The translations under genes were made by a program, and so were the position numbers. This document shows positions 4,520 through 13,434 of a DNA stretch of 13,602 nt, in pieces. The stretch comes from Acidimicrobiales bacterium (GTDB lineage Bacteria; Actinomycetota; Acidimicrobiia; Acidimicrobiales; Palsa-688), in the NCBI GenBank assembly GCA_030039575.1, contig JASHVH010000181.1, positions 1 through 13,602 of the forward strand. The letters are read 5' to 3'. A model generated the notes under the pieces. The model did not search any database. It had not been told where the DNA came from and worked only from the letters and a program-made list of their open reading frames with translations. Every line of letters begins with the position of its first letter. Positions within the stretch are counted from its first letter, which is position 1.

Positions 4520-5146
4520 TCACCCTACCTTGGCCCGGACGCGCCGGCGCCTACGGCTGCGCGCCGCGGCGCGCCGCCGGTTGGGCAGGTCGGAGCCCGT
4601 CCCCGGCGGGCCGGCCGTCATCACGGGCGGGGCTGCACTACGCGCCCCCAGCGCCCAGTACATCAGGCCCACCGCCGGCAGCGAAAACAACGCCGCATAA
4701 GTGGCTTCGATCACGACCACCTCGACAAGCCATCTCTTCCCGGGGGCGATCAGCTGCGCCTGCCCGACGAGGTAGCCGATAACGACGAACAGCACGACTC
4801 CGAGCGCCGTGCCTGCCGCGGCGATGGCGGGGACGATCCACAAGCGCAGGCGCAAGAAGTTCGTCCTGGCCCAGCCGGCTGCGAAGCCGGCCAGGCAAAA
4901 GGCCAGCGCAGACAACCCGAACGGTGTGTCCTGCAAGAAAAGGTCGCTCAGGAGGCCCGCCGCGAACCCCACGACGGCGCCCTCGTCCGGGCCCCCCACG
5001 TACCCGGCGCACACTGCCAGGAGCAGCATGAAGTCGGGGGCCACGGTGTCGACGCGAAAGTCCGCACCGAAGGTCGTCTGGACCAGGATGCCCAACAGGA
5101 GCACGATCAAGACCTTGAGCCCGGTCTTGACCCATCGCCCGCTCAC
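4520..5146 (-). CDS. mreD: MreD, membrane protein of the elongasome
   Basis: A small integral membrane protein of 208 residues from the chosen start. It has about five or six hydrophobic segments, beginning at residues 9-25, and acts with MreC to couple cytoplasmic MreB to PBP2 and RodA. The signature-like stretch DTPFGLSALAFCLAGFAAG in the middle is typical of MreD. The start is GTG at 5146, preceded by GGGTGA seven nt upstream; the helix then begins within ten residues, as is normal for the family. A longer frame from an ATG at 5257 would add 37 residues without membrane or family character and would run through the structured element upstream, so I reject it. The last 35 or so residues form a Pro/Gly linker followed by an Arg cluster (RSRRRRRVRAKVG), a basic tail probably on the cytoplasmic side. 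Sequence conservation in MreD is low; identity rests on topology and position between mreC and mrdA. Confidence 0.9.
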   Translation of the reverse strand: MSGRWVKTGLKVLIVLLLGILVQTTFGADFRVDTVAPDFMLLLAVCAGYVGGPDEGAVVGFAAGLLSDLFLQDTPFGLSALAFCLAGFAAGWARTNFLRLRLWIVPAIAAAGTALGVVLFVVIGYLVGQAQLIAPGKRWLVEVVVIEATYAALFSLPAVGLMYWALGARSAAPPVMTAGPPGTGSDLPNRRRAAARSRRRRRVRAKVG

Positions 5147-5175
5147 GGCGCCGTCACCCGGCCGTGCGTAGCTAT

Positions 5176-5314
5176 AGGCGTTCCGGGAACATGGTGAAGG
5201 AGAGACGGCGGCGGTTCGCTCCACGAGGTCCGGGAACGTGCCTGTCTTGCACGGCATTTGTAGTTATGACAGGAGCTAGTCGCCGCCATCTCTCTCACGT
5301 AGTTCCCGAAGCCT
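5176..5314 (-). other. Long imperfect inverted repeat in the mreC-mreD gap (candidate structured RNA or palindromic element)
   Basis: The arms are 5176-5213 and 5281-5314 on the plus strand. AGGC pairs with GCCT, TTCCGGGAAC with GTTCCCGAA (one bulge), a shorter GTGA/TCAC patch follows, then GAGAGACGGCGGCG with CGCCGCCATCTCTC, where the single exception becomes a G-U pair in minus-strand RNA. That is about 30 pairs around a 67-nt loop. Inside the loop, GAGC/GCTC (5273-5276 with 5218-5221) and GACAG/CTGTC (5268-5272 with 5242-5246) can continue the fold. The element lies between two co-directional genes otherwise expected to be almost contiguous. It may be an RNA regulator, a processing site or a MITE/REP-like insertion; I do not recognise a known family. 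Confidence 0.6.
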
Positions 5315-5363
5315 CTGTACGTCCGGCTCCGCAGCGCCCTCGAAAAACCAGCCCCACAGGCAC

Positions 5364-6200
5364 TCAACCTGTTTGCGGGGACCACAGCAGGACTCGCACG
5401 AACTGCACGTTGACCAGGTCGGCGTACGGTTTGGCCGACATGGTCAGCTGGAGCCCACCAGCCGGGGCGTAGACCGAAGCGACGGAGCCGACGGGTATCC
5501 CGGGTGGGAACCGCTCGCCCTGGAGCCCACTGGTAACCAGGGCCTGGCCCTTCTTGACTTGCGCGCCGACCTCGACGTTCTCCACCTGTAGGAGGTTGCC
5601 CTCTCCCTCGCCCGCCGCCGCGCCGACTATCCCGCTGCTCACTACCCGTACGCCCACAGTGAAGCTGGGGTCGTCGATCAGGGTAATGGTGGCCAAACGA
5701 GACGACACAGACGTGACACTGCCTAAGAGGCCACCCGCCGATACGACGGGTTGCCCGACGACGATGCCCGAGGTGGCGCCCCGGTTTATCTCCAGTGATT
5801 GCTCGAAATTGGCGCTCCCGACGTCGATGACCTGGGCGGCCACGCTAGGGATATTACCCAGGTAGGTCAAGTGTTCTTGGGCCAGCACCTGCTGCGACTG
5901 CTCCAGTTGGCTCTCGGCCTGGACGTACATATTTTGCTCCGCAGCCAGATCCTGGCGAAGCGTCTCATTTTCTTTTTGCAGGGTGCCGTAGTTGGCTGCG
6001 CCGTATAAAAAATTGCCTATTGGTTCGAGGGCGGAATGGACATCTGATTGGAAAGGGTTGGCCACGTCGCGTGCGTACTGGCGGATCTTGGTGAAGATCT
6101 GCTGGCTACTGGTGCGGTCGGACAGCGTTATCAGGGTCACGCCGAGGAGCACTAGCACCAGCAATAAGAACCGGCCGCGCGGGCGCCGGGGGGCAGCCAC
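5364..6200 (-). CDS. mreC: MreC, periplasm-side scaffold of the elongasome
   Basis: A 278-residue bitopic protein that bridges MreB/MreD to PBP2. A basic N-terminus (AAPRRPRGR) is followed by one membrane helix at about 11-26. Residues 74-112 are rich in Glu, Gln and Leu with heptad-like spacing, the coiled coil by which MreC dimerises. The twin beta-barrel domain covers about 120-270 and contains the family hallmark FPPGIPVGSV (231-240), along with INRGATSGIVVGQPVV (139-154). The length is in the usual MreC range. The start is GTG at 6200, 12 nt after the mreB stop, with AAGG overlapping the end of mreB as a likely ribosome binding site. Unlike the other junctions of this cluster, 217 nt separate its stop codon from mreD. 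Confidence 0.95.
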   Translation of the reverse strand: MAAPRRPRGRFLLLVLVLLGVTLITLSDRTSSQQIFTKIRQYARDVANPFQSDVHSALEPIGNFLYGAANYGTLQKENETLRQDLAAEQNMYVQAESQLEQSQQVLAQEHLTYLGNIPSVAAQVIDVGSANFEQSLEINRGATSGIVVGQPVVSAGGLLGSVTSVSSRLATITLIDDPSFTVGVRVVSSGIVGAAAGEGEGNLLQVENVEVGAQVKKGQALVTSGLQGERFPPGIPVGSVASVYAPAGGLQLTMSAKPYADLVNVQFVRVLLWSPQTG

Positions 6201-7364: not shown

Positions 7365-7808
7365 TCAAAGTTCGGGGAAGAACAGTGCCACCTCTCGTTG
7401 GGCCGACTCCGCGCTATCAGACCCGTGTACCAGGTTCTCCTCGGTCGTCAGGGCCAGGTCCCCCCTGATCGTCCCCGGTCCCGCTTCGGCCGGGTTGGTC
7501 GCCCCGATGGTGCGCCTCACCACCTGCACGGTGCCAACCGGGCCCCCTACGGCCAGCAGGAGGACGGGGCTCCTGGTGATGTACTCGATCAAGCCTTCGT
7601 AGAACGGCTTGCCCGCGTGCTCACGATAATGCGTAGCCGCCGTCTCTTTGTCCATCTGGCGCATTTCTGCCCGCGCCAGGTGCAGGCCGCGACGCTCCAA
7701 GCGGCCGATGATCTCGCCGACGAGGCCTCTTTCGACCGCGTCGGGCTTGCAGATGACCAGAGTTAGCTCGGCGTCGCGGCCGATGGTGGGGTTGTTGGGC
7801 TGGCTCAC
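7365..7808 (-). CDS. ndk: Nucleoside diphosphate kinase
   Basis: Transfers the terminal phosphate from ATP to other (d)NDPs through a phosphohistidine intermediate, keeping NTP and dNTP pools balanced in the cytoplasm. At 147 residues it is the usual size. The active-site motif NLVHGSDS is intact with the phosphorylated histidine at 128; the conserved TLVICKPDAVERGLVGEII (16-34) and GATNPAEAGPGTIRGDLA stretches are also present. The Cys before KPDAV replaces the more common Ile, Val or Leu. The start is GTG at 7808: there is no Shine-Dalgarno sequence, but TAGTCT ends nine nt before it, so translation may be leaderless or coupled to folC, whose stop is 35 nt upstream. Confidence 0.96.
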   Translation of the reverse strand: MSQPNNPTIGRDAELTLVICKPDAVERGLVGEIIGRLERRGLHLARAEMRQMDKETAATHYREHAGKPFYEGLIEYITRSPVLLLAVGGPVGTVQVVRRTIGATNPAEAGPGTIRGDLALTTEENLVHGSDSAESAQREVALFFPEL

Positions 7809-13361: not shown

Positions 13362-13434
13362 CGGGGAGTAGCGCAGTTGGTAGCGCACCTGCTTTGGGAG
13401 CAGGAGGCCGCGGGTTCAAGTCCCGCCTCCCCGA
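13362..13434 (+). tRNA. tRNA-Pro (anticodon UGG)
   Basis: A complete cloverleaf. The acceptor CGGGGAG (13362-13368) pairs with CTCCCCG (13427-13433), with discriminator A at 13434. The D-arm region is TAGCGCAGTTGGTAGCGCA. The anticodon stem CCTGC/GCAGG encloses the loop TTTGGGA, giving anticodon TGG (13395-13397). The variable loop has five nt, and the T-arm is GCGGG-TTCAAGT-CCCGC (13410-13426). CCA is not encoded, so it must be added enzymatically. The gene reads CCA and, by wobble, other proline codons. Confidence 0.97.

Follow-up and report, generated by a model that had tools for sequence, protein, structure and literature searches.

The window, a contig of 13,602 nucleotides (C348) from a genome of 3.83 Mb that is spread over 565 contigs and is 68% complete, carries mreB-mreC-mreD-mrdA-rodA as open reading frames of an operon on the minus strand. 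The gene names came from an earlier note and from reading of the sequence, and those of mreC and mreD were backed by homologue searches. The closest matches to MreB were found in Actinobacteria, Actinomycetes and Acidimicrobiaceae MAGs, at 96-97%. The upstream gene mreC (5364..6200, minus strand) was found in 27 of the 30 family relatives searched, and the downstream gene mreD (4520..5146, minus strand, likely GTG start at 5146) gave tblastn matches 3' of mreC at all 27 of these relatives' loci. A gap of 217 nt lies between the mreC stop at 5364 and the likely mreD start. The preliminary description of this DNA had called such a gap out of character, and the ORF coordinates of the adjoining junctions agree with this: 12 nt for mreB-mreC, 4 nt for mreD-mrdA and an overlap for mrdA-rodA.

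Most of the gap is occupied by a strong, imperfect inverted repeat. The arms located by an inverted-repeat search (5200-5222 and 5272-5294) showed a complementarity of 83%, and the minus-strand RNA of 5150-5340 was predicted to fold at -86.4 kcal/mol (z = -3.42), a value matched or surpassed by two of 200 shuffled sequences. The hairpin claimed from first reading is thus real, and the one exception in its core, A-C in the sequence, indeed turns into a U-G pair in the minus-strand RNA. A pattern scan of 5100-5420 returned no promoter and no terminator. At the mreC stop, a stem followed by five T (5335-5395, minus strand) resembled a terminator, but it was rejected since its fold was no better than that of its shuffles (z = -0.57). 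At the gathering threshold, Rfam had no family for the mreC-mreD element; its sole match in the whole window was a tRNA gene at 13362-13434 on the plus strand. The few papers found on mreC/mreD intergenic regions or terminators describe no RNA at mreC-mreD, as judged by titles and the beginnings of abstracts.

Alignment of copies from elsewhere in the genome set the boundaries of the element at 5173..5319 (minus strand), a unit of 147 nt including a TA at each end. The true unit is slightly larger than the 5176-5314 given in the preliminary description; its arms measure about 48 nt each and its loop about 50 nt. A covariance model matched the window copy over positions 1-147 at 162.4 bits; the model was built from five copies with the window copy among them, and the sense orientation is that of the family alignment. 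The left terminal inverted repeat, beginning TACAGAGGCTTCGGGAACTACGTGAGAGAG, lies at 5272..5319 (minus strand, alignment columns 1-48) and the right one, ending CTCTCCTTCACCATGTTCCCGGAACGCCTATA, at 5173..5222 (minus strand, alignment columns 99-149). Between the arms lies the loop (5223..5271, minus strand), the least conserved part among the copies with a pairwise identity of 52-82%, compared to 83-94% for the left arm and 75-86% for the right arm. This combination of conserved tips and a drifting middle is the pattern that would be expected of ends recognised by a transposase. The mreD frame stays open 5' through the right arm as far as an ATG at 5257 in the loop (5146-5257, minus strand), and a 37-codon N-terminal extension of MreD from this ATG would be possible on paper. 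The element itself is too short for a transposase gene, and the ORFs of at least 80 aa that cross it, the mreD read-through included, extend into the flanks.

When the gap was searched by blastn in the genome from which it comes, four further near full-length copies were identified, on contigs C438, C560, C394 and C304, at 75-84% identity, together with short one-arm matches at other places. The five full copies, the one in the window included, are 72-84% identical to each other, measure 146-148 nt, and their homology begins and ends at common points in the alignment. The left end follows the consensus TA-nAGAGGCTTYGGGAACT, and the complemented right end reads TA-nAGATGTTYCGGGAACA in most copies. 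All five copies have TA at the left tip; the right tip is TA in four of them and CA in C304. Both ends thus carry TA in four of five copies, and the junctions in the relatives are too diverged for an empty site to be read base by base; the TA may belong to the repeat itself rather than to a target duplication.

The covariance model recovered all five full copies (141-175 bits) as well as weaker places. A full-length, older copy on C44 scored 51 bits; many of its positions are unpaired and its fold is little above that of its shuffles (z = -0.88). About ten truncated or degenerate copies are also present in the genome. Contigs C278 and C9 terminate inside a copy, as is expected of repeats, and single-arm or degenerate copies were seen on C299, C228, C414, C153, C485, C543, C258 and at a second place in C9; a copy on C298 is doubtful (E 0.013). 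Profile searches of the contigs or 3-kb loci of the single-ended copies revealed no clear second end, and the E-values for partial copies in these searches are lenient because the contigs were preselected. Weak extra profile matches were noted on C414 (E 0.036 and higher). On C228 (locus 2831-2930) a partly complementary sequence and a T run come after a single arm, an arrangement that on inspection resembles an intrinsic terminator built partly from the repeat. Structure was one of the grounds on which weak model matches on C25, C238, C470 and at another place in C560 were picked, and their good pairing is in part a product of this choice. The second C560 place (locus 1365-1504, 23.4 bits) is a full-length match that lies where the permease gene next to the full C560 copy begins, and each of its tips is TA.

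The pattern of the ends gave 22 matches in this genome versus two for a reversed control, and in two congeners it stayed at background (one versus four and two versus six). Exact pattern scans of genome-contig and viral-contig collections, in which records very near the genome of the window may be missing, gave no matches, and neither did blastn against plasmids and phages.

The neighbours of the copies were compared. The copy on C438 is flanked by an ABC ATPase and a permease, that on C560 by a permease and an enolase-superfamily gene, and that on C394 by a DHDPS-family gene and RNase J. A SIS-domain gene flanks the C304 copy and a PIG-L gene that on C278, and the C299 copy has a MerR regulator and a gene for glycine-cleavage T as its neighbours. 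These genes are unrelated, and no common regulatory theme was seen. In the window the element has the same sense as its operon; in C438, C560 and C394 it is antisense to the genes on its flanks, and in C304 to the downstream gene. In C560 (locus 1462-2526) the ORF of the ABC permease enters the element and has its stop codon supplied by the terminal repeat, which places that insertion at the gene's 3' end or within that end. The full copy in C394 (locus 7509-7655) lies in the dapA-rnj junction, 5' of the gene for RNase J.

In all 27 relatives whose mreC could be read, the gap to mreD lay between -4 (an overlap) and 97 nt, and in the two congeners it was 16 and 22 nt. These gaps were measured to the nearest in-frame mreD start, the start codons being the choice of the analyst. 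A comparison with relatives had been proposed as a check on the gap, and no gap of the size seen in the window was encountered in any of the 27. The dapA-RNase J junction, which holds a copy here, measures 266 nt; in congener G001 only 31 nt separate DapA residue 296 from RNase J residue 5, leaving no room for the element, and in congener G002 RNase J had no match at the threshold used. No match to the covariance model was obtained in the two congeners at an E-value of 0.1, with 150 candidates scored in each. By blastn against 60 relatives (the two congeners, 29 genomes of the family and 29 of the order), the family was not found beyond two short, weak one-arm matches taken as chance, in G042 (23 bases, E 0.0012) and G022 (27 bases, E 0.0086). 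A shallower search of 297 genomes of the order did not find it either; these negatives are weaker, since only two candidates were scored per genome and no more than two of the five full copies were listed in the own genome.

The preliminary description had suggested that the structure could be a dedicated cis-acting RNA which sets the ratio of MreC to MreD/PBP2/RodA through RNase processing or attenuation. The strong hairpin in the transcript and the long gap within an otherwise tight operon speak for such a function, but copies of the same family adjoin unrelated genes in both orientations, and the relatives have no comparable gap. If the RNA stem were important, the arms of each copy should match each other better than the arms of other copies. 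Arm pairing was 36.4 of 40 within a copy and 35.75 of 40 when arms were crossed between the five copies; own-copy pairing was hardly above cross-copy pairing, so selection at the RNA level is not shown by these few copies. In the outer helix 98.5% of the cells are paired over the five copies and nine of 13 pairs are invariant, while 87.4% are paired in the inner helix. A covariation check, recommended earlier for related genomes, was run on the five genomic copies and gave a weak to absent signal. The covariation term of RNAalifold was unfavourable (+2.72, five sequences), and the observed count of doubly changed pairs was reached in 216 of 500 shuffles, that of pair types in 310. The covariation score, the cells paired and the doubly changed cells were reached by 26, 40 and 52 of 500 shuffles, respectively; these three measures lean slightly toward kept pairing, a weak lean given five related sequences. 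The comparisons with relatives and between copies, and the lack of an Rfam family for the element, make a dedicated regulator of the MreC:MreD/PBP2/RodA ratio very unlikely, and that part of the preliminary description was abandoned. A copy that has been co-opted after insertion is a refinement of the MITE explanation and no alternative to it. RNase III would then cut the hairpin and tune the downstream genes as in the Correia elements of Neisseria, whose binding or cleavage by RNase III in mRNA is published (PMC2649163, PMC10969869), and the window copy folded alone does reach -70.0 kcal/mol. It forms 36 of 40 arm pairs, inside the range of 35-39 spanned by the other full copies, and together with the small excess of within-copy over between-copy pairing this makes co-option unlikely.

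The genome contains further palindromes. At C25:3948-4088, a place singled out by a structure model, lies a near-perfect hairpin of 141 nt (-69.6 kcal/mol, z = -8.77). It is akin to the window family in its form and in some stretches of sequence, and both of its arms have changed. Decay without compensation therefore fails as an account of the whole group, and the joint change of both C25 ends could reflect either pairing that was kept or the matching ends that a transposon requires. Blastn with the C25 element gave matches in its own genome on C475, C289, C28, C26, C214, C488 and C101 (E 3e-6 to 0.02) and two weak matches in 31 relatives, G018 (E 0.0068) and G011 (E 0.0146), the latter with one arm-like piece visible. 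Its end pattern occurred six times here versus one for the reversed control, and at background in the 31 relatives (14 matches versus 29 for the control). The genome thus holds a wider group of palindromic repeats that is, as far as seen, its own. That such genome-restricted repeats uncouple the two halves of an operon through cutting of double-stranded RNA in junctions like mreC-mreD and dapA-RNase J is quite unlikely. Short palindromes of about 50-60 nt (C214, C289, C70) and the several single-arm copies could also recall REP-like palindromes, spread by a RAYT-type (Y1) transposase rather than as a terminal-repeat MITE. The two long arms, the defined length of 146-148 nt and the TA tips of the window family do not fit this picture. 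Y1_Tnp (PF01797) was without a match in this genome (G000) and in G002, with one match in G001 and matches in six of 14 control genomes; its absence here counts for little since the genome is incomplete. Altogether, an origin as REP-like palindromes is very unlikely.

The explanation preferred here, a MITE-like repeat, follows from the dispersal of the copies, their shared ends, the absence of a comparable gap in relatives, the unrelated neighbours and the mixed orientation. The mreC-mreD hairpin is very probably one copy of a dispersed repeat, a mobile-element relic and not a dedicated switch. The element has a unit of 147 nt, terminal inverted repeats of about 48 nt and five dispersed full copies besides partial ones. 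The possibility of a mobile relic had been raised beforehand, and the four further full-length and many partial copies scattered over the genome favour it. The element most likely entered the mreC-mreD junction after the lineage had split from the two known congeners. The TA tips point toward a transposase of the IS630/Tc1 type, and a TA-targeting enzyme of this kind probably moved the element. Most copies are now probably decaying; the five full ones have already diverged from each other by 16-28%, a distance that does not document recent movement. An incidental effect of the element on the transcript is possible. Where the hairpin is transcribed together with the operon, it might be a target of RNase III or have a slight side effect on mreD-mrdA-rodA.

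A search for an autonomous partner found none: DDE_3 (PF13358) had no match in this 68%-complete genome, although it is present in 15 of 32 genomes of the family. At 16 of 30 DDE_3 loci in family relatives a TA-bounded repeat pair was detected; none of those listed starts like the window family, and 11 of the 16 loci list a pair starting with TAGTG. Because the genome is 68% complete, the element was not filed under the IS630/Tc1-mariner MITEs, to which it may still belong.

The element agrees in size, TA tips and long stem-loop with the class of bacterial MITEs outlined in PMC2229807, which are about 100-200 bp long with inverted ends, a terminal TA and stem-loop transcripts. The Correia/NEMIS elements (CREE) of Neisseria are similar in length (153-157 or 104-108 bp), inverted ends, terminal TA and a stem-loop in the transcript (PMC2649163, PMC2229807), and their hairpins can be substrates of RNase III (PMC2649163, PMC10969869). 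They differ in number, with about 120 to 250 per Neisseria genome (PMC2649163) versus a handful of full copies here. RNase III action, promoters and an IHF site are features of Correia elements; the likeness here is one of form, and no sequence relation is claimed. RUP of Streptococcus pneumoniae is likewise a short MITE with inverted ends and TA insertion, for which mobilisation by IS630-Spn1 was proposed (PMC2229807). In contrast to the present family, RUP is 107 bp long, has 108 copies and is accompanied by an IS with similar ends (PMC2229807); no such IS was found here. ERIC of enterobacteria, 127 bp, is also intergenic and co-transcribed with its neighbours (PMC2229807), but belongs to a different host, and the likeness drawn here is one of description.

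The structure is genuine but unremarkable: the family is new and small, and the kind of mobile repeat to which it belongs is known. At mreC-mreD it is most likely a transposon-derived repeat and no new regulator of cell-shape genes. A single full-text search of one literature collection found no paper on miniature inverted repeats in Acidimicrobiales, and the family described here adds a small MITE-like group to this order. If the organism can be cultured, the hairpins of one family lying in several operons would provide a natural test of RNase III processing.
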